64,000 bases of DNA from Stigmatella aurantiaca DW4/3-1 (GTDB lineage Bacteria > Myxococcota > Myxococcia > Myxococcales > Myxococcaceae). Below, piece by piece: positions 1 to 12,683 of the stretch; positions within the stretch are counted from its first letter, which is position 1; each line of letters begins with the position of its first letter. Where the stretch lies: NCBI RefSeq assembly GCF_000165485.1, contig NC_014623.1, positions 5,288,893 to 5,352,892 of the forward strand. The letters are read 5' to 3'. A model generated the notes under the pieces. It worked only from the letters and a program-made list of their open reading frames with translations. It made no database searches and was not told where the DNA came from. The position numbers and the translations under genes are program-made.

Positions 1-1276
<1,276 letters not shown>

Positions 1277-1397
1277 GAATGGAAAGTCCTTTGAAACGGG
1301 TACAGCAGCCCCTGTTGATTCACATGGACCAGCCGCGGGGCGCGACGGAGGCCACGTGTGTCCCCACCCCGGGGACAAGAAGAAAATGAAGCCGCGC

Positions 1398-1427
1398 ACC
1401 CTAGACACCGGTGATTCCGGCAGTCAA
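1398..1427 (-). promoter_or_regulatory. Sigma-70-like promoter for rpsA
   Basis: On the minus strand, TTGACT (1427-1422) is separated by 18 bases from TAGGGT (1403-1398). This matches 5/6 of the -35 consensus and keeps the TAnnnT frame of the -10. A start near 1390 would leave a leader of about 115 nt before the rpsA ATG. Upstream of it lie two small inverted repeats, AGCAC/GTGCT (1431-1449) and GCCCGG/CCGGGC (1468-1485). This is a prediction from sequence only. Confidence 0.5.
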
Positions 1428-1617
1428 GCGAGCACGCAACGGTTGTGCTGACCTGCGCAAAACGCCCGCCCGGGGCCGTCCGGGCTGCGGAAGAGACACA
1501 GGAGGGCCGCTTCCTGGCGGACCGGACGCGTTTCCCGGCCCACACACGGCGACCGCAGGCCCTTCTGTTCTAGGAACGCCTGCTCCCCCGTGCAAGCTGC
1601 CCGGAGGGAGCGGTTTT

Positions 1618-1647
1618 TCCGGGAGGACGGCTGCCTGCCCTCCCGGA
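1618..1647 (-). terminator. Hairpin just after the maltoporin-like gene
   Basis: A perfect 9-bp inverted repeat (TCCGGGAGG / CCTCCCGGA) with a 12-nt loop begins 14 bases past the stop codon of the porin gene. On the minus strand it is followed by AAAA rather than a U-tract, so it would be a non-canonical or weak terminator or a 3'-end stabiliser. Read on the plus strand it is preceded by five T's. It separates the porin transcript from rpsA. Confidence 0.5.
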
Positions 1648-1661
1648 GACGGAGCGTGGGG

Positions 1662-3068
1662 CTAGAACCACCACTCGGCGCGGGTGCCGACGTAGTGGCC
1701 GAACTTCTTCGGGCCAAAGTCCTGGAGGTACGGGGACACGGGCAGGCCGTAGGTGCCCCGGTCCAGCAGGTCCACTTCGGCCTGGTTGAAGATGGCCAGC
1801 GAGTAGATGAGGCGGATCTGCGGGCGGGCCCAGGCCGAGCGCAGGCCGGACGGGACGATCGTGGGGACGATGGAGAAGCGGAAGGCCGTGGGCATGCCCG
1901 GATCCTCCACGCCCTCGGGCAGCTCCGCCTTGAAGCCCTGGAACGTCGCCTCGTTGACCAGGTGGAAGTTGTCGTGCAGGTACAGGAAGCTGCGCACGCC
2001 CACCACGAAGTTCGTGCCGCTGTTGATTCCGACCGCCGCGCTGGTCCGCTCCCCGTCATCCGCGCCCTTGCTGTGCTGGAGGATGCCGTACGCGTTCAGG
2101 GTGAGCAGCGGGTTCACGTTGTAGAGCAAGTGCTCCACCGCCTCGATGCCCAGCGCGCCGCTGTACTTGCCGTCCTCGTTGGGCCGGCCGAAGGTCGCGA
2201 ACGTCGGGGAGGCGCTGAAGGCGCCGTTGGCGATGCCGCCGCCGAAGCGCACCGACAGCTCGTTGAAGCTGCCGTCGCCCAGGTCCAGGCGGCCCTTGAC
2301 GCCCACCGCGTAGCCGATGTCGCTTTCCTGGATGTTCACGCCCTCATCGGTGAGGCGCGTCTTGTTGGCGGGCAGCAGGTGGAACTCACCCAGGAAGTTC
2401 ACCGAGTGCTTCTCGGCCACCGGCAGGATGTACTGGCCCACGAACGTGGTGCGCTGACGGTCGAAGCGAACGTTCGTGTCCGGGTCCACGACGCTGTACA
2501 GGCCAGGGGCCTGGGAGGTCTGCAGCAGCACCGCCAGGTCCAGCCCCTTGTACTTCAGGCCGGCGCCCTGCGAGACGAGGGCATTGAAGAAGAAGATATC
2601 GGCGATGTGCACGTCGGTGCTGCGGTAGAAGCGCTGGCCGACCCAGAGCGTCAGATCCTGGGTGAGCACGTTGCCCGCCTCGAGGTAGGCCTGGGAGATG
2701 GAGAAGCCCGGGGTCGAGGCGCCGAGGTACGAGCCCGTGTTCGAGTACATCGCGGGGGTGACCACCACGTGGTAGTAGGGCTTGGCGGGCTCCTCCGCCA
2801 CGGGCTTGACGATGTGCAGCTTGATGGTGGGCTCGAGGTAGTCGCCTTCCTCGAAGCGCCCTCCCAGCGCATTGCCCAAGAGGTTGATGTACTTGCCGTG
2901 CACGAAGCGGCCAGTCTGGGGATTCCAGGTGGCGCCCATGCGGCCGTACATGCCGAACTCGACGTTTTCAGACCCAATCCACGCCGAAGCGGTGGTGGGT
3001 ACTGCCAACAGGGTCGCGGCGGAGATCAACGAGGTGACGCAAGAACGCAGTCTTCGGGAAGAAAGCAC
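1662..3068 (-). CDS. Maltoporin-like outer-membrane sugar porin (LamB family)
   Basis: Predicted outer-membrane beta-barrel for passive entry of oligosaccharides. I chose the GTG at 3068 because it puts a signal peptide first (LSSRRLRSCVTSL... ending TTASA, then W); upstream in-frame starts would add about 37 unlikely residues. The mature protein is about 440 residues, close to the 420 of LamB. The segment RFYRSTDVHIADIFFFNAL...GAG parallels the conserved maltoporin motif around 'RFYQR.DVH..D...W..SGPGAG', and the chain ends in aromatic residues (EWWF), as outer-membrane barrels do. It diverges from a sugar ABC importer, which supports a carbohydrate substrate, but which sugar cannot be told. 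Overall LamB similarity is distant. Confidence 0.75.
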   Translation of the reverse strand: MLSSRRLRSCVTSLISAATLLAVPTTASAWIGSENVEFGMYGRMGATWNPQTGRFVHGKYINLLGNALGGRFEEGDYLEPTIKLHIVKPVAEEPAKPYYHVVVTPAMYSNTGSYLGASTPGFSISQAYLEAGNVLTQDLTLWVGQRFYRSTDVHIADIFFFNALVSQGAGLKYKGLDLAVLLQTSQAPGLYSVVDPDTNVRFDRQRTTFVGQYILPVAEKHSVNFLGEFHLLPANKTRLTDEGVNIQESDIGYAVGVKGRLDLGDGSFNELSVRFGGGIANGAFSASPTFATFGRPNEDGKYSGALGIEAVEHLLYNVNPLLTLNAYGILQHSKGADDGERTSAAVGINSGTNFVVGVRSFLYLHDNFHLVNEATFQGFKAELPEGVEDPGMPTAFRFSIVPTIVPSGLRSAWARPQIRLIYSLAIFNQAEVDLLDRGTYGLPVSPYLQDFGPKKFGHYVGTRAEWWF

Positions 3069-3177
3069 GATGCAGCCCCCAAACGTATTGCGGATGACAA
3101 AAAGTCGAGGATGTGAGGAGTGAGACCGGAGGGAGACATCTCCCTTCCTCAATGGGCCGGCCAATGCGGGCCTCCTC

Positions 3178-3231
3178 ATAGAACTTGATAGTTGTTCTAT
3201 TCAAGTCTCTTGATCACGGATAAATCGTGAT
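3178..3231. promoter_or_regulatory. Two AT-rich inverted repeats upstream of the porin gene
   Basis: ATAGAAC (3178-3184) pairs with GTTCTAT (3194-3200) across 9 nt, and ATCACG (3213-3218) pairs with CGTGAT (3226-3231) across 7 nt. The stretch is much more AT-rich than its surroundings and lies 110-165 bases before the porin GTG. Either dyad could be an operator or part of the porin promoter or leader. No regulator gene is adjacent. Confidence 0.4.
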
Positions 3232-3272
3232 ACGGGTTGCCTTGCCCACGGGAGGGGTGGACGCGAAGGTTC

Positions 3273-3289
3273 TTGACCCCTCGCGTCAA
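3273..3289. promoter_or_regulatory. Candidate operator, copy 1 (TTGAC-N7-GTCAA)
   Basis: A 17-bp dyad, TTGAC CCCTCGC GTCAA, lies in the divergent interval between the porin and the sugar-importer operon. An almost identical copy lies 35 bp downstream (centre to centre). Two equal dyads on a similar helix face suggest cooperative binding by a dimeric regulator. Confidence 0.6.
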
Positions 3290-3307
3290 AGATTGCTCAG
3301 CCAAACA

Positions 3308-3324
3308 TTGACCGCCCGCGTCAA
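3308..3324. promoter_or_regulatory. Candidate operator, copy 2 (TTGAC-N7-GTCAA)
   Basis: TTGAC CGCCCGC GTCAA, the same half-sites and spacer length as copy 1, 70 bases before the binding-protein ATG. Read on the minus strand the two copies share TTGACGCG-R-GSGGTCAA. Confidence 0.6.
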
Positions 3325-3393
3325 GGTTTGCCCAGCCCGTGTGGACGCGTTGAACGCGCTCCGGTCCGGAGCGTCTCCTTGGAGGAAACACGT

Positions 3394-4659
<1,266 letters not shown>

Positions 4660-4669
4660 GGAGGCAGGG

Positions 4670-5635
4670 ATGGCCCACCCCGCGACCCCGATCAACCCTG
4701 GACCTGGAGGCGCCTCCGCACCGCCCGAGGCGCCCCCGCCCGTGCTGGAAGGCGCCTCCGCGCTGCTGCGCGAGCGCACCCGCGCCGCTTGGCTGTTCCT
4801 GGCCCCCACCCTGGTGGTGATGGTGGTGGTGGCCGGGTGGCCCCTGGCACGGACCTTCTGGTTCTCGTTCACGGACGCGAACCTGACGGACATGGCCGCC
4901 TCCCAGTTCGTGGGGTTGGAGAGCCTCCGCCAGGTGATAGACGATCCGGACTGGTGGACCACGGTGTGGACCACCTTCCGGTTCGCCGGGGTGTCGGTCG
5001 TGCTGGAGACGGTGCTGGGGATGATCATCGCCCTGGCGCTGAACGCGAAGTTCGGGGGCCGCGGCATTCTGCGCGCCGCGGTGCTCGTGCCCTGGGCCAT
5101 CCCTACCGTTGTCTCCGCGAAGATGTGGGCGTGGATGTTCAACGACATCTACGGCGTCGTGAACGCGGTTCTCCAGTCGCTGGGCCTCATCTCGGAGCCG
5201 ATGGCGTGGACGGCGGAGCCGGGGCTGGCCTTTGGGGCGGTGGTGGCCGTGGACGTGTGGAAGACGACGCCCTTCATGACGCTGCTCATCCTGGCGGCGC
5301 TCCAGATGTTGCCGGGAGATGTCTACGAGGCGGCCCGCATCGATGGGGCCGGGCCCATCCGGGCGTTCTTCCAGGTGACGCTGCCCATGCTGAAGGGGCC
5401 GCTGATGGTGGCCATCATCTTCCGCATCCTGGATGCACTGCGCGTCTTCGACGTCTTCTTCGTGCTCACCGGCGGTGGGACAGAGACGATGCCGATGGCG
5501 GGCTACGCGCGGCAGCGGATGTTCGAGTACCAAGAGATTGGTGTCGGCTCAGCGGCGGCTTCCTTGCTGTTCGCGATCATCGCCCTGTTCACCGCCGTCT
5601 ACATGGTGGTGGGCCGGGTGAAGCTGGGAGATTAG
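4670..5635 (+). CDS. Sugar ABC transporter permease, MalF type
   Basis: First inner-membrane permease of the importer. It has 321 residues with a roughly 40-residue Pro/Ala-rich N-terminal tail followed by about six hydrophobic helices. The cytoplasmic EAA loop that docks the ATPase is clear: EAARIDGAGPIRAFFQVTLP. GGAGG at 4660-4664 precedes the ATG at 4670, only 10 bases after the binding-protein stop, so the genes are co-transcribed. Short MalF-like members (about 290-320 residues) are usual for trehalose/maltose-type systems; this one lacks the large periplasmic loop of E. coli MalF. Confidence 0.92.
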   Translation: MAHPATPINPGPGGASAPPEAPPPVLEGASALLRERTRAAWLFLAPTLVVMVVVAGWPLARTFWFSFTDANLTDMAASQFVGLESLRQVIDDPDWWTTVWTTFRFAGVSVVLETVLGMIIALALNAKFGGRGILRAAVLVPWAIPTVVSAKMWAWMFNDIYGVVNAVLQSLGLISEPMAWTAEPGLAFGAVVAVDVWKTTPFMTLLILAALQMLPGDVYEAARIDGAGPIRAFFQVTLPMLKGPLMVAIIFRILDALRVFDVFFVLTGGGTETMPMAGYARQRMFEYQEIGVGSAAASLLFAIIALFTAVYMVVGRVKLGD

Positions 5636-5638
5636 GGC

Positions 5639-6463
5639 ATGCGCTGGGTGAAGAAGGCGGCGTTCGCGGTGTTGCTGGCGGTCATCAGCGTCTACACGCT
5701 CTTTCCCTTCTACTGGGCCATCGTCTCGTCCTTGAAGACGGGCAGCGAGCTGTTCGAAGTCGCCCCATGGCCGAAGGAGCCCGCCTGGGGCAACTACACG
5801 GCGGTGTTCACCGCCCAGCCCTTCGGGCAGAACATCCTCAACTCGGTCATCGTCGCCTCGGCGGTGGTGGTGCTGTCGCTGGCGCTGGGGCTGACGGCTT
5901 CGTTCGCGCTGGCGCGCATCCAGTTCCGGGGCCGCAGCACCCTGCTGCTCACGGTGCTGGGTGTGTCCATGTTCCCGCAGATCGCCGTGCTGTCGGGCAT
6001 GTTTGAACTGGTGCGCTGGCTGGGCTTCTACAACAAGCTGCCGTCGCTGATTCTCTCGAACCTCATCCTCACCCTGCCCTTCACCGTCTGGGTGCTCACC
6101 ACGTTCATGCGGGAGCTGCCGAAGGACCTGGAGGAAGCGGCCATCGTGGATGGTGCCACGCCGTGGATGATCGTCACCAAGGTGTTCCTGCCGCTGCTGG
6201 GGCCCGCCATGGCGACCACGGGGCTCTTGGCGTTCATCTCCGCGTGGAATGAGTTCCTGTTCGCGCTCACCTTCAGCCAGTCCGACAACGTGCGGACGGT
6301 GCCGGTGGCCATCGCCCTGTTCAGCGGTGGCAGCGCGTTCGAGACGCCCTGGGGCGTCATCATGGCCGCCTCCGTCATCGTCACCGTGCCCTTGGTGGTG
6401 CTGGTGCTCATCTTCCAGCGGAAGATCATCTCCGGTCTCACGGCGGGAGCCGTGAAGGGGTAG
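5639..6463 (+). CDS. Sugar ABC transporter permease, MalG type
   Basis: Second permease, 274 residues with about six membrane helices. The EAA loop reads EEAAIVDGATPWMIVTKVFLP, and the C-terminus (FQRKIISGLTAGAVKG) is the conserved MalG-family tail that contacts the ATPase dimer. The ATG at 5639 follows the previous stop by 3 bases, so translation is probably coupled. No MalK/UgpC-type ATPase gene follows; instead the 3' end overlaps the convergent DUF3703 gene by 26 bases. The importer must borrow an ATPase encoded elsewhere. Confidence 0.93.
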   Translation: MRWVKKAAFAVLLAVISVYTLFPFYWAIVSSLKTGSELFEVAPWPKEPAWGNYTAVFTAQPFGQNILNSVIVASAVVVLSLALGLTASFALARIQFRGRSTLLLTVLGVSMFPQIAVLSGMFELVRWLGFYNKLPSLILSNLILTLPFTVWVLTTFMRELPKDLEEAAIVDGATPWMIVTKVFLPLLGPAMATTGLLAFISAWNEFLFALTFSQSDNVRTVPVAIALFSGGSAFETPWGVIMAASVIVTVPLVVLVLIFQRKIISGLTAGAVKG

Positions 6464-6809
6464 CCTCCTCCTCCCGCAGCCATTCCTGGAGATCCGCGGG
6501 GATGGGCATGGGGGTGAAGATGCCCACGTTGGCTCCTCCCGTGTTCCCCCGGGGGGCGCGCCCGAGCCACGAACCCGGGGCTGCCAGGAGCAGCCGGGGC
6601 CATTGCCCGAGGCACTCGCGGAGGTCCCTCCGGCGCCAAGCGAAGGCAAACATCGCCCCGTGCACCCGGAGGTGAGGCCAGGCATGGGCTTGGCTCAGGA
6701 TGTGCGCCCGCTCCAGGAATCGCCACGAGGCAGCCAGTTCCCCGCGCGCTTCTGCTTCTGTTGAGGCACGCAGCTCTTGGTCGAAGTGCTCTTGCAGGTG
6801 GAGGTTCAT
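6438..6809 (-). CDS. DUF3703 family protein
   Basis: A 123-residue soluble protein whose central part matches the DUF3703 pattern as I remember it: an alpha-helical N-terminus, 'FLERAHILSQ', 'HLRVHGAMF', then 'SWLGRAPRGNTGGANVG' and 'PMPIPADLQEWL'. Function is unknown; nothing suggests catalysis. The gene is monocistronic and its 3' end overlaps the MalG-type permease gene tail-to-tail. The Met at 6809 is the only good start. Confidence 0.75.
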   Translation of the reverse strand: MNLHLQEHFDQELRASTEAEARGELAASWRFLERAHILSQAHAWPHLRVHGAMFAFAWRRRDLRECLGQWPRLLLAAPGSWLGRAPRGNTGGANVGIFTPMPIPADLQEWLREEEATPSRLPP

Positions 6810-7247
6810 CGTTTACTCGTTGCCGAACGGGTGCTGGGACATCTTCTTCTCAAGGCGGCGTAATCTCGAACACGGGTAGACGCCTCTATCGAGCATTTGT
6901 AACGCCCGGCTGCGCGGCTGCCACGATGGTTGCCCCTGCGGCGGTGAGAACAGCCGACATGCTCGGTTCAGGCGCTCTGTCTGGGCTTGTCCCGATTGGG
7001 TGGCTCTCCTACACGATGTGTGGCTGCCCGCCAGGAGCCTGCGCTTCGCCCCTCCCGATGGGGGAAGGCACGAACCTGTCCGACAAGCAGACAGGTTCCG
7101 CGAGGCTGCGACCAGGGCAGGCTCGGTCTACCGGACATTTGGGTATGAGCATGGCGTGAGCAGACCTCAAGAGGATGGCTGACGAGAAGAGACCCGACGG
7201 GTAGGATGTAAATGAGGAGAGGCCATTGCCTTCTTTGGAGGTGCGCC
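6810..7247. other. Gene-poor stretch of about 440 bases upstream of the broken kinase gene
   Basis: No convincing gene on either strand: the open frames have no recognisable protein features. The only clear structure is an 8-bp hairpin, AACCTGTC (7073-7080) / GACAGGTT (7090-7097), with a 9-nt loop, not followed by T's. The lack of genes next to a decayed kinase is consistent with DNA left over from earlier genes. Confidence 0.4.
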
Positions 7248-8144
7248 ATGGATGAGCTGTCTCCCGAGGCACTTCCGGACGGAACTCTTTGGGGGTCATG
7301 GCGGGTGAAGAGACGTGCGGGCTACGGCACGTATGGGGCGGTTTACCAAGCACACCGAAGGGGGCGGTTCCACTGGAAGCACCGCCGCTCGGTCAACACC
7401 CATTACCAGGCCACGCCCGCGGATGACGTGTATGCACTGGGGGTGACGGCCTACCGGCTGTGCACGGGAATCTACCCGCCCCCGGCGACGGACCCCTCCA
7501 TCGTGGGCGATGATGGGCGCGATACCCAGGAGGTGCTGGTGCCTCCGAGCCAGCTCAAACCGCTGGCGCCCGCCTTGGAGCGCCTCATTCTCCGCATGCT
7601 TTCCGACAGGCCCCAGGACCGAGGCAGTGCTGTTGAGCTGGCCTCAGCCATGGAAGCTGCGGCGGATGCCGCTGGCGCTGAAGCCGATGTGCCGCTGAAT
7701 CCGTCGAGCAGAACCTCGGGAGTCACGAGCCCCCCTGCCCCCGCGCCTCGCCAGGCAGGAAATTGGTCCGGGGTGCTCCTCCCCTTGATCGCTGGAGTTC
7801 TCATCCTGGTTGTTGAGAGCCTGCGCTGGGAAGGTTTCTTGGCGCCTCCTTCCGGCATGACAGATGGCGGAACCGGAGGCGTGGCGGATGCAGCCGTGGA
7901 AGAGTTGCCGGTGTCCAGATAAGAGCCCGAGTCCAGCGGACTGACCTTGGAGGTACCCAAGGAGCCATTGCCGGGCCAACGGCGCCCACCCTGTGCCCGC
8001 TTCCAGATCAACATCCATGGAGGCTGCTGGCTTGAGGTCCTTCAAACCTCACCGCCCTGCGGAGAGAGCTATTACGAATGGAAAGGGGCCTGCTACTCCC
8101 CCATGTTCGTCCCTCTGAGGCCCGGTACATCGGACCCTCGTTAG
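7248..8144 (+). pseudogene. Myxobacterial Ser/Thr protein kinase gene, catalytic core deleted and interrupted by a stop
   Basis: ATG at 7248 with GGAGG upstream. Residues 1-40 carry a normal kinase start with a glycine-rich loop (GYGTYGAVYQAH). The frame then jumps to sequence normally found after the activation segment (RFHWKHRRS...ATPADDVYALGVTAYRL, then the ERLILRMLS...RPQDRGSA end of the C-lobe). The VALK lysine, HRD and DFG motifs are all absent, implying an in-frame loss of very roughly 150-200 codons. After a membrane segment (GVLLPLIAGVLILVV) an in-frame TAA at 7920-7922 stops translation. The same frame resumes with the family's conserved Cys-rich tail (LPGQRRPPC...NIHGGCW...PPC...YEWKGACY) ending in TAG at 8144. 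It cannot be an active kinase. A short membrane-anchored fragment may still be made. Confidence 0.8.
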
Positions 8145-8169
8145 GGCAACGGTTTCATCGAAAGCCCTA
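8142..8169. terminator. Inverted repeat holding both stop codons (broken kinase / acyl-CoA dehydrogenase)
   Basis: TAGGGC (8142-8147) pairs with GCCCTA (8164-8169) across 16 nt. TAG of the plus-strand gene is the first arm's start, and the complement of the minus-strand gene's TAG is the second arm's end. It is a candidate shared bidirectional 3' end. Confidence 0.4.
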
Positions 8170-9315
8170 TGAGCCGAACAGCTTGAACGTCTCCCGGGCG
8201 ATGACCATTCGCTGCACCTCGCTGGTGCCCTCGTAGATGGTCTGCACGCGCGCGTCCCGGTAGTAGCGCTCCACCGGGAACTCGTCGATGTAGCCGTAGC
8301 CGCCGTGGAGTTGCACCGCCTTGTCGCAGACACGGTTGGCCATCTCGCTGGCGAACAGCTTCGCCATGGAGGCCTCGCGCGTGAACGGCTGACCCTTCTC
8401 CTTCAGGGTGGCCGCCCGGAACGTCAGCAACTCCGCCGCCGCGATCTGCACCTTCATGTCCGCCATCATGAAGCGAGGGCCCTGGAACTCGCTCACCGGC
8501 TGGTTGAAGGCATGGCGGTCCTTCGTGTACCGCACGGCGGCCTCCAGCGCCGCCCGGGCCACCCCGCACGCCTGAGAGGCAATGCCGATGCGGCCCCCGT
8601 CCAGCGCCACCATCGCCAGCTTGAACCCCTCCCCTTCCTTCCCCAGGATCTGATCGGCCGGAATGTGGCAGTCCTCGAACGTCAGGCTCACCGTGTTCGA
8701 GCCGCGCAGGCCCATCTTGTCCTCGTGCTTGCCCACGTGCAGGCCCTTCGTTCCGCCCTCCACGATGAAGGCGGACAGGCCCTTGTTGCCCGTGCCGGAG
8801 GTGCGCGCCCACACCACCATCACCCCCGCGTACGCCCCGGAGGTGATCCACTGCTTGCTGCCGTTGAGCACCCACTGGTCGCCCTGCCGCACCGCCGTGG
8901 TGCGCAGCGCGCCCGGGTCCGAGCCCGCGTGGGCCTCGGAGAGCGCGAACGAGCCCACCACCGCCTCGCCGGACGTCAGCCGGGGCAGGAACTTTTCCCG
9001 CTGGGCCTCCGTGCCGAAGGTGTTGATCAGCTCCCCGCACATGTTCGTCACGGCCATGGCCACGGAGGTGGAGGCGCACGCGGCCGACAGTTCCATCACC
9101 GCCAGCGCGTAGGCCACCACCCCGGCCTCCGAGCCCCCATAGCGGGCCGGGAGGTTCACCCCCATCAGCCCTACCTCCGCCAGCTCCTTGAAGAGCGCCG
9201 GGGAGAAGCGCTCCTCCCGGTCGGCGGCGCGGGCCTGGGGCTCCACCTTCTCGCGGGCCACCTTCCGGGCGGTGTCACGGATGAGCGTCTGGGTCTCGGT
9301 CAGCTCGAGGTTCAC
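8167..9315 (-). CDS. Acyl-CoA dehydrogenase, short-chain type
   Basis: FAD enzyme that introduces the alpha-beta double bond into short acyl-CoAs and passes electrons to ETF. It has 382 residues, the usual length. The N-terminal helical domain is followed by the beta domain with FALSEAHAGSDPGALRT and 'WVLNGSKQWITSG', and the C-terminal helical domain ends in YEGTSEVQRMVIARE, where the Glu of EGTSE is the catalytic base position of short-chain and butyryl-CoA dehydrogenases. It is the last gene of a minus-strand run of beta-oxidation genes (6 bases after the preceding one) and a close paralogue of the gene at 9760-10902. Confidence 0.95.
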   Translation of the reverse strand: MNLELTETQTLIRDTARKVAREKVEPQARAADREERFSPALFKELAEVGLMGVNLPARYGGSEAGVVAYALAVMELSAACASTSVAMAVTNMCGELINTFGTEAQREKFLPRLTSGEAVVGSFALSEAHAGSDPGALRTTAVRQGDQWVLNGSKQWITSGAYAGVMVVWARTSGTGNKGLSAFIVEGGTKGLHVGKHEDKMGLRGSNTVSLTFEDCHIPADQILGKEGEGFKLAMVALDGGRIGIASQACGVARAALEAAVRYTKDRHAFNQPVSEFQGPRFMMADMKVQIAAAELLTFRAATLKEKGQPFTREASMAKLFASEMANRVCDKAVQLHGGYGYIDEFPVERYYRDARVQTIYEGTSEVQRMVIARETFKLFGS

Positions 9316-9321
9316 GGGGGT

Positions 9322-9756
9322 CTACTCGATGGCCTTGAGGTTGAAAGGGTACTCGATGGGGTAATCGCGGCCGTCCGGGGGCTTGGGGAACGTCATCGCC
9401 GTGAGCACCGCCACCACGCAGTCATGCAGCCCGGGGTCCTTCAGCGTGGTGCCCTTCTTCAGCACCTTCGCGTTCCTCACCATGCCCACCGCGGAGATGG
9501 TGAAGGAGGTCATCAGCTTGCCCTCCACCTTCTTGTCCTGCTCCACCAGCGTGTCCTCGTAGCAGGCCTGGATCTTCTCCCGGTGGTACGCGATGACCTG
9601 CTGGATGGAGTCGGGCGTGAAGGGCAGCTTGGTCACGTCCAGCACCTCGCGGGGCTTGGGGGCGGCCTTCCGGGCGGGCTTGGCCCCAGGCTCGTCCTGC
9701 GCGAGCACCGCCGTGGATGCCAGCCACACCGCCGCGACGAAAAACCGGCCCATCAT
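9322..9756 (-). CDS. Periplasmic AgmX/PglI C-terminal (TonB-like) domain protein
   Basis: A 144-residue exported protein. A signal peptide (MMGRFFVAAVWLASTAVLAQ) precedes a short Lys/Pro linker and one AgmX/PglI C-terminal domain: 'IQACYEDTLVEQ', 'GKLMTSFTISAVGMVRNAKV', 'LHDCVVAVLTAMTFPKPPDG', 'YPIEYPFNL'. The two cysteines of the CYE and DCV motifs are both present. In myxobacteria this domain is common on gliding and periplasmic proteins, and its fold resembles TonB C-terminal domains. It lies between two acyl-CoA dehydrogenase genes with 3- and 6-base gaps, so it is co-transcribed with them although no metabolic role is known. Confidence 0.8.
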   Translation of the reverse strand: MMGRFFVAAVWLASTAVLAQDEPGAKPARKAAPKPREVLDVTKLPFTPDSIQQVIAYHREKIQACYEDTLVEQDKKVEGKLMTSFTISAVGMVRNAKVLKKGTTLKDPGLHDCVVAVLTAMTFPKPPDGRDYPIEYPFNLKAIE

Positions 9757-9759
9757 CGT

Positions 9760-10902
9760 TTACTCCTTCAGCAGGTTGGCCGAGATGACGATGCGCTGGA
9801 TCTCGCTCGTCCCCTCGTAGATTTCGGTGATGCGCGCGTCTCGCACGTGGCGCTCGGCATCCATCTCCTTGCTGTAACCCATGCCGCCGTGCACCTGGAG
9901 GGCCTTGTTGGCCACGCGGCTGGCCATCTCGCTGGCGTACAGCTTCGCCATGGCGCTCTCCATGGAGTGGCGCACGCCCTTGTCCTTGAGCAATGCCGCC
10001 TGGTGCACCAGCAGGCGCGCCGCGTCGATCTCCGTGGCCATGTCCGCCAGCATGAACTGGATGGCCTGGTGCTCCCGGATGGGCTTGCCGAACGTCTTGC
10101 GCTCGCCCGAGTAGCGCACCGCCTCCTCGAACGCGGCCCGGGCGATGCCCAGCGCCTGCGCGGCGATGCCGATCCGGCCGCCGTCCAGCGTGCTCATGGC
10201 GACCTTGAAGCCCTCGCCCTCCTTGCCCAGGAGGTACTTGGCCGGCACGCGCATGTCCTCGAAGAACATGGAGCAGGAGTGCGCCGCGCTGATGCCCATC
10301 TTCTTGTCAGGCTCGGCCCGGATGAAGCCCGGCGTGTTCGTGGGCACGATGAAGGCGGTGATGCCCTTGTTGCCCGCCTCCTTGTTCGTCATCGTGAACA
10401 GCACGATGGCGTCCGCCTTGGGGCCGTTGGTGATCCAGTTCTTCGAGCCGTTGATGACGTACTCGTCGCCCCGGCGCACCGCGACCGTCTGCTGGGCCGC
10501 CGCGTCGCTGCCCGCCTCGGGCTCGGTGAGGCCGAAGCAGCCGAGCTTCTCGCCGCTGGCGAACGGGGTGAGGAACTCCTTCTTCTGCTCCTCGTTGCCG
10601 TACTTCGACACCGGATCGCAGTAGAGCGAGTTGTTCACGCTCATGATGACGCCGGTGGAGGCGCAGCCACGGCTGATCTCCTCCATGGCGATGGCGTAGC
10701 AGACGTTGTCCAGCCCGGCGCCGCCATACTGCTCGGGCACCGCCACCCCCAAGAGCGACAGCTCGGCCAGCTTCTTCACCGCCTCGGTGGGCCACGCGTG
10801 GGTCTCGTCCCACTTCCGGGCGTTGGGAATGAGCTCGCGCGCGGCGAACTCACGGCACATCCGCTGGGTTTCCCGCTGGATGTCGGTCAGCTCGAAGTTC
10901 AT
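9760..10902 (-). CDS. Acyl-CoA dehydrogenase (butyryl-CoA dehydrogenase-like)
   Basis: 380-residue flavoenzyme of acyl-CoA oxidation. Motifs in order: 'CYAIAMEEISRGCASTGV', 'CFGLTEPEAGSDAAAQQT' (FAD/substrate-binding beta domain), 'YVINGSKNWITNG', 'RIGIAAQALGIARAAFEEA', 'QVHGGMGYSKE', and the C-terminal YEGTSEIQRIVISANLL with the catalytic Glu. The RIGIAAQA and YEGTSE forms favour short-chain (C4) substrates. It is followed after 3 bases by the AgmX-like gene and preceded, after 119 bases, by enoyl-CoA hydratase. It probably works on butyryl-CoA with the hydratase and dehydrogenase upstream. Confidence 0.95.
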   Translation of the reverse strand: MNFELTDIQRETQRMCREFAARELIPNARKWDETHAWPTEAVKKLAELSLLGVAVPEQYGGAGLDNVCYAIAMEEISRGCASTGVIMSVNNSLYCDPVSKYGNEEQKKEFLTPFASGEKLGCFGLTEPEAGSDAAAQQTVAVRRGDEYVINGSKNWITNGPKADAIVLFTMTNKEAGNKGITAFIVPTNTPGFIRAEPDKKMGISAAHSCSMFFEDMRVPAKYLLGKEGEGFKVAMSTLDGGRIGIAAQALGIARAAFEEAVRYSGERKTFGKPIREHQAIQFMLADMATEIDAARLLVHQAALLKDKGVRHSMESAMAKLYASEMASRVANKALQVHGGMGYSKEMDAERHVRDARITEIYEGTSEIQRIVISANLLKE

Positions 10903-11021
10903 GGCACTCCTGAAAGAATGGGCGCGGCCGCATTGTACGCGGCCCGGGGGGAAGCACGACCGACCCTCCGGGGTCCCTCCCTGGAGGAGGGGTTGCCGTG
11001 CCTATTAGAGAACGAAACGTT

Positions 11022-11798
11022 TCACTTGCCCGAGAAGGCAGCGGGACGCTTCTCCAGGAAGGCCTTCATGCCCTCGCGCTGGTCCTCGGTGCCGAAGAGG
11101 ACGCCGAAGCCCTGGCTCTCCAGCTCGTTGGCGGTGCGCAGATCCTGGTCCGCGCCGAACTCGATGACGCGCTTGGCCTGGGCGAGCGCCAGCGGGCCGT
11201 TCTTGAGGAGCTTGCCGGCCACCGCGAGGCAGTGCTCCATCAGCTTCTCCGGGGGCAGGACGTCCAGCACCAGCCCGTACTCCTTGGCCTGGGCCGCCGT
11301 CACGTGACTGCCCGTGAAGACGAGCTCCTTGGCGCGCATCTTCCCCACCAGCCGCGTGAGCCGCTGCGTGCCGCCGAAGCCCGGGATGACGCCGAGTGTC
11401 ACCTCGGGCACCCCCAGCTTTGCCTTCTCCGAGGCGTAGATGAGATCGCACGCCAGGGCCAGCTCGCAGCCCCCGCCGAGCGCGAAGCCATTCACCGCCG
11501 CGATGGTGGGGCAGCCCAGGTGCTCCAGCATGCCCATGACCCGCTGGCCCAGGGCAGCGAACTCGCGGGCCCGCTCCGAGCCGATGGTGGCCATCTCGGC
11601 GATGTCCGCGCCGGCCACGAAGGCCTTCTCGCCCCCGCCCGTGACGATGAGGACGCGGGTGTCCGTGCCCAGCGACCGGAGCGCGGACTCCATCTCGAGG
11701 AACGTCTGGGTGTTGAGCGCGTTGAGCGCCTTGGGCCGATCAATCGTGAGGGTCGCGATCGCGCCCTGCTTCTCCAGCCGGATGTTGTCGTAGACCAT
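11022..11798 (-). CDS. Enoyl-CoA hydratase (crotonase family)
   Basis: Hydrates trans-2-enoyl-CoA to 3-hydroxyacyl-CoA, the second beta-oxidation step. 258 residues, standard for single-domain crotonases. The oxyanion-hole segments FVAGADIAEM and NGFALGGGCELALACDL are intact, and both catalytic glutamates are in place (in GGGCELA and in LGVPEVTLGVIPGFGGTQRL). The order on the minus strand is 3-hydroxybutyryl-CoA dehydrogenase, this gene (27-base gap), then acyl-CoA dehydrogenase. A CCCTCC/GGAGGG hairpin lies in the downstream gap near 10974-10990. Confidence 0.95.
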   Translation of the reverse strand: MVYDNIRLEKQGAIATLTIDRPKALNALNTQTFLEMESALRSLGTDTRVLIVTGGGEKAFVAGADIAEMATIGSERAREFAALGQRVMGMLEHLGCPTIAAVNGFALGGGCELALACDLIYASEKAKLGVPEVTLGVIPGFGGTQRLTRLVGKMRAKELVFTGSHVTAAQAKEYGLVLDVLPPEKLMEHCLAVAGKLLKNGPLALAQAKRVIEFGADQDLRTANELESQGFGVLFGTEDQREGMKAFLEKRPAAFSGK

Positions 11799-11825
11799 GG
11801 GAGGCTCCTCTTGCGGGAAAAAGTC

Positions 11826-12683
<858 letters not shown>

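Follow-up and report, generated by a model that had tools for sequence, protein, structure and literature searches.

Transcription of maltose and alpha-glucoside importers is known to be subject to LacI-type regulation. Importers of this kind, with their local operators, are one of the closest described parallels to the locus analyzed here, from which they differ in that neither LacI-family gene of the genome under study fits the distribution of the sites. Autoregulated operators are also known for regulators of the MarR family. The likeness in this case is a 17-bp palindrome with two 7-bp arms situated upstream of a MarR gene, whose product matches by sequence MarR proteins of solved structure (such as Rv2887 and OhrR), whereas the gene itself has no linkage to the genes for the porin, importer and glucanases discussed below. 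A third parallel is offered by the GH87-type alpha-1,3-glucanases (mutanases): CatAgl_D1 and CatAgl_D2 catalytic domains, accompanied here by F5/8 and CBM modules, are found in several proteins described below, and we take the CatAgl-domain glucanases to be of the GH87 type. Alpha-1,3-glucan occurs in the cell walls of fungi and in dental plaque. In the open-licence full-text literature we found nothing on the regulation of GH87-type glucanases in myxobacteria, and searches with the motif spellings, for mutanase or maltoporin in myxobacteria, for GH87 in Corallococcus, and for MarR together with Stigmatella or glucan returned nothing on the present system; the papers that did come up concerned a Prevotella GH87 locus, a candidate-phylum genome and steroid degradation.

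The window (the whole stretch of 64,000 nucleotides that was analyzed) corresponds to positions 5288893-5352892 of the single-contig genome of 10,260,756 bp referred to here as G000. It carries a gene for a LamB-family outer-membrane porin on the minus strand (1662..3068, GTG start assumed), whose product matched PF02264 (E 3.3e-38) over residues 39-468, that is, over most of its length, and scored far below the NCBIfam maltoporin cut-off. On the plus strand there are genes for the extracellular sugar-binding protein of an ABC importer (3394..4659, SBP_bac_1) and for two ABC permeases (4670..5635 and 5639..6463, both BPD_transp_1). Inspection by eye of the ORFs of positions 1-12000 revealed no ATPase gene adjoining the porin and importer genes and no regulator gene, and no regulator gene was noticed next to the operons in the other loci that were mapped. 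Near more distant copies we saw, also by eye, a LysR-like gene (L215), the end of an AraC-like gene (L023), a LacI-like gene (L025) and a TetR-like gene (L214).

The interval between the porin and importer genes contains two 17-bp dyads, TTGACCCCTCGCGTCAA at 3273-3289 and TTGACCGCCCGCGTCAA at 3308-3324 of the forward strand, which in the orientation of the porin gene (minus strand) read TTGACGCGAGGGGTCAA and TTGACGCGGGCGGTCAA, respectively. They have identical TTGAC/GTCAA arms and spacers of 7 bp, start 35 bp from each other, and have copies in the orthologous intervals. This twin arrangement, its placement between a sugar porin and an ABC importer, and the lack of an adjoining regulator gene had all been described in the sequence-only reading, and each of these points was borne out, the positions exactly. 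The dyads form the cores of a tandem direct repeat (3273..3337) with a period of 35 bp, composed of two 30-bp units (3273-3302 and 3308-3337) which are 83% identical. Counted from the start site inferred for the porin, they are about 110 and 150 bp upstream, and the first of them starts 68 bp beyond a putative porin promoter, TTGAAT-N18-TATGAG (3175..3204, minus strand), which was read by eye and is not listed by the consensus scan.

The motif originally proposed, TTGAC-N7-GTCAA, is present exactly, but its arms proved too short and too symmetric, since one of them extends to WTGACGC. Among 30 collected sites, CGC occupied positions 5-7 of one arm in every case and the other arm was looser (partly a result of the way in which the sites were chosen). 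This combination of one tight and one loose arm suits a dimer with a strong and a weaker half-site, or an asymmetric binder. The site would thus be WTGACGC-N5-GTCAW, with the 17-bp palindrome WTGACGC-N3-GCGTCAW as its best form. We consider it likely that the twin dyads are the operators of a small alpha-glucan regulon, for which a MarR-family protein can be named as a tentative regulator. According to this proposal, the two dyads would be bound by a dimeric transcription factor whose gene lies in another part of the genome, and the same factor would probably control the porin and importer operons together with unlinked genes for secreted alpha-1,3-glucanases; the cutting of glucan and the import of the resulting oligosaccharides would then respond together. 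What the sequences show directly is that the sites exist, are conserved, recur before glucanase genes and keep a fixed distance to the putative porin promoter; protein binding, co-regulation and the substrate are inferred from this, and control could be by either repression or activation.

Exact copies of TTGAC-N7-GTCAA numbered 6 in the genome, compared with 0 for the reversed control, and matches with up to one mismatch 134, compared with 100. By eye, the four exact places outside the interval comprised one coding sequence with HAMP-like repeats, one site beside a different MarR gene and two other intergenic sites, and a genome-wide regulon based on this exact spelling was dropped. The refined pattern WTGACGC-N5-GTCAW gave 8 hits at 7 places in G000 (1 hit for the reversed control), and 75 hits (14 for the control) when summed over seven genomes. 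The seven exact places in G000 are the two dyads, one glucanase site, one site before a MarR gene, two sites in coding sequence and one before a ribonucleotide reductase-like gene; four of the seven are thus away from glucan genes, which counts against the regulon. In the subset of listed places that was inspected in relatives, most of the remaining occurrences look unrelated. The exceptions are exact sites upstream of a GH43 gene in G041 (L294:1924-1940, 49 bp from the ORF) and of genes with a weak likeness to phasins in G041 and G040 (L300:2026-2042 and L254:652-668, respectively); given the GH43 site, the regulon may not be specific for glucan. A lack of conservation combined with random scatter, which the sequence-only reading had regarded as fatal to its proposal, was not what we found at the porin/importer locus, although most of the other inspected copies do resemble chance occurrences.

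The link to glucan digestion comes from the promoters of alpha-1,3-glucanase genes. CatAgl domains were found in 13 of 96 genomes of the family, with four copies in G000. The proteins in question have both CatAgl_D1 and CatAgl_D2 catalytic domains, and alpha-1,3-glucanase is their predicted activity. In G000 the main glucanase gene (532644-536159) is preceded, at a distance of 109 bp, by TTGACGGAAAGCGTCAT (ATGACGCTTTCCGTCAA on the gene strand), and equivalent sites occur in G036, G037 and G038. In G041 and G042, dyads are located upstream of a gene for a large protein of secreted type which adjoins a second copy of the binding-protein gene, and this large protein carries alpha-1,3-glucanase catalytic domains.

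The main glucanase copy was scanned in 10 of the 13 genomes (G032, G033 and G035 (L217) were left out). The refined site was present exactly in five of these promoters (G000, G036, G037, G038 and G041), with one mismatch in two (G042 and G007), and absent from three (G004, G006 and G034). Among 149 unrelated upstream regions of 300 bp that served as a control, two contained a site with up to one mismatch and none an exact one. Because some of the glucanase sites went into the refined pattern, the exact matches are not independent of it, and G000, G036, G037 and G038 are close relatives that do not represent independent cases. A weight matrix built solely from the binding-protein sites gave scores of 13.9-16.0 for the glucanase promoters of G000, G036, G037, G038, G041 and G042, and 2 of the 149 unrelated regions reached 13.9. 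Before the refinement, the glucanase site of G000 already differed from TTGAC-N7-GTCAA at a single position, although 134 places in 10.26 Mb match at least that well. Among the glucanase paralogs (scanned with the exception of the fourth G007 copy (L272) and the class D copy of G037 (L266)), sites with up to one mismatch were found in 3 of 7 members of class B, 3 of 6 of class C and none of 5 of class D. Four GH31 loci of G000 (L273-L276, out of five matches) contained no site with up to one mismatch; a site with two mismatches was found in L276. Two further observations concern the correspondence between dyads and glucanases: G039 and G040 have kept a single dyad, yet show no CatAgl match at E 1e-20, and G042 has the glucanase site but lacks the dyad in the porin interval, which counts against common control.

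The MarR-family gene mentioned above (G000:C1:9066245-9066790) lies apart from the porin, importer and glucanase loci. Its product contains a winged-helix DNA-binding domain of the MarR type (PF12802, E 1.4e-14; PF01047, E 1.2e-13), and upstream of the gene there is a palindromic site, ATGACGCATCGCGTCAT, a putative operator of the gene itself. Both its 7-bp arms are intact, so that it was matched on both strands, as no other place in G000 was. The stop codon present in G036 within the longer reading of the gene indicates that a later ATG is the start, which puts 173 bp between the site and the gene in G000. The upstream dyad is kept in all four close genomes over which gene and dyad were compared (G000, G036, G037 and G038); in the latter three it occupies the corresponding place, its interior has changed and its flanks have diverged. 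The segment before the likely ATG (L246:2639-2745) is strongly conserved at the DNA level and is probably untranslated, as the G036 stop codon falls within it. An AlphaFold model of the protein, obtained from a 4-sequence alignment, had a mean pLDDT of 43, too low for the model to be used. In favour of a MarR-type factor, a second MarR gene, present in the same four genomes, is associated in all of them with a different palindrome of the same 7-3-7 build, TTGACAA-N3-TTGTCAA (L004:1501-1517, between this gene and a TolC-like gene), which is probably the operator of the second MarR protein itself; its arms match the porin dyads no further than TTGAC.

Binding of this protein to the porin dyads is suggested by the shared arm sequence, and among the seven exact places in G000 it is, as judged by eye, the sole regulator gene beside a site. 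We put it forward as the best candidate for the factor acting on the dyads, but only tentatively; the gene could be just another target. Somewhat more doubtful is the wider picture of a previously undescribed MarR-family regulator that would tie extracellular digestion of alpha-1,3-glucan to LamB/ABC uptake from several unlinked loci, as a scattered regulon in which the number of operators has been altered by local duplication. If the regulon is real, it supplies a testable operator, a candidate regulator and a set of target genes for glucan sensing and use by myxobacteria, all originating from one small intergenic motif; for gene regulation this would be a modest step forward, of a kind already familiar.

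A plausible alternative, to which we give a little more credence than to the MarR assignment, is that the dyads serve as operators for a different unlinked regulator (e.g. of the TetR, GntR or AraC type), the MarR gene being a mere target or unrelated. The invariable CGC in one arm and the looser second arm would also fit an asymmetric binder, some of the arrays are direct repeats at about 18-22 bp, and TetR-like and LysR-like genes were seen by eye near a few sites in relatives (L293, L298 and L299). The sites at these three loci fall, however, in coding sequence, and inspection by eye showed no regulator gene other than the MarR gene beside the exact places in G000.

It is unlikely, but worth weighing, that the twin dyads are a chance pattern or the product of a neutral tandem duplication. 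Of 5000 dinucleotide shuffles of the interval (3069-3393), 6 produced a pair of dyads that agreed in their 5-bp arms and in spacer length (3-12). Such a pair, with its members up to 60 bp apart, arose about once per shuffled window (11 in 12 windows), compared with one observed; with up to one mismatch allowed, the window contains two matches of the motif, and two or more were obtained in 16 of 100 shuffles. The pair is thus rare for the interval and not for 64 kb, and the case accordingly rests on comparison with other genomes, since the sequence by itself does not settle the question. The repeat also runs beyond the dyads, which speaks for this reading.

The comparison covered the upstream regions of 29 related binding-protein loci from 22 of the 96 genomes of the family. 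A dyad with up to one mismatch was found at 10 of these loci, while 19, including that of G042, had none. Eight of the intervals are orthologous, originating from seven genomes of the same genus and from G042, a member of another genus of the family, and seven of the eight have kept one dyad or more, with up to one mismatch allowed. Two dyads are present in G000, G036, G037 and G038 (at 35 bp) and in G041 (at 20 bp), whereas G039 and G040 have one each and G042 has none; G032-G034, which belong to a third genus, have a related site. Among the four closest genomes, conservation immediately downstream of the dyads equals that of the dyads themselves, which accords with chance or neutral duplication, and since conservation there is non-specific, the weight falls on G039, G040 and G041. 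In these three genomes much of the surrounding sequence has changed, but the distance between the -35 box of the putative porin promoter and the first dyad has been held: it is 68 bp in G000, G036, G037, G038 and G041, 69 bp in G039 and 70 bp in G040. This constancy, together with the recurrence of the site before glucanase genes, argues against a chance origin. A block corresponding to the putative promoter was present, with base changes, in all eight orthologous intervals.

That G039 and G040 have just one site each points to local duplication as the origin of the pair, which probably goes back to one ancestral site. Cooperative binding, as originally proposed, finds no support in these data, in which neither the copy number nor the spacing of the dyads is conserved. 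The accompanying proposal of sites for a dimeric regulator encoded at a distance fared better, gaining partial support from the conserved orthologous intervals and from the recurrence of the site before related genes.

We regard it as very unlikely that the dyads work in RNA, as small leader hairpins, rather than as DNA operators. A block at 3180..3235, in which 55 of 56 columns are identical in the four close genomes, possibly includes the importer promoter as well, and in that case the dyads may lie in the leader of the importer transcript. Just downstream, at 3356..3373 (plus strand), there is a hairpin of 7 pairs, 3 of which covary in 9 orthologues and paralogues; it is situated directly 5' of the ribosome-binding site of the binding-protein gene and is possibly an mRNA stabilizer. 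The dyads behave differently: departures in their 5-bp arms mostly break pairing (of the 30 sites, 5 have lost pair 4, 1 has lost pair 3 and 11 have lost the outer pair), and two-sided changes that keep pairing occurred at the outer pair only, a result that is no more than indicative, given that resemblance was the basis on which these sites were selected. In G000, moreover, the sites of the glucanase and MarR genes lie as far as 109 and 173 bp before the genes.

Least probable of all is a role of the dyads as operators for a sugar repressor of the LacI family, of the kind that acts on many maltose-type importers: the flanking genes are indeed maltose-type uptake genes, LacI-like genes occur near several distant homologues, and look-alike repeats are found upstream of an AraR-like LacI gene in G000, but the genome has just two LacI-family matches, of which (i) the first sits with L-arabinose-like genes beside a classical TGTGAGCGCTCACA palindrome and has no match at E 1e-60 in G037 and G038, which both carry twin dyads, and (ii) the second, present in G000 and G036-G038 and preceded by AACGTT-centred palindromes, has no match at E 1e-40 in the dyad-bearing G039 (in a 58-genome sample without G040 and G041), so that neither gene follows the distribution of the sites. 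The region upstream of the AraR-like gene (L130:9580-9805, G000:C1) combines the classical palindrome with a 19-bp direct repeat resembling the dyads.

Other readings of the dyads were rejected on inspection. The sigma-70 scan lists no promoter-like site in 2900-3600 and, by eye, the TTGACC of either dyad, taken as a -35 hexamer, is followed by no convincing -10 hexamer at 16-18 bp; a sigma-54 element (TGGCAC-N5-TTGC) was likewise not seen by eye. Operators of the CRP/FNR type have the spacing TGA-N6-TCA, and here it is TGA-N9-TCA.

In G036, a second alpha-1,3-glucanase gene (L047:13215-16661) is located directly 3' of the importer operon. The G000 copy which has an upstream block similar to that of this second gene is found at another location.
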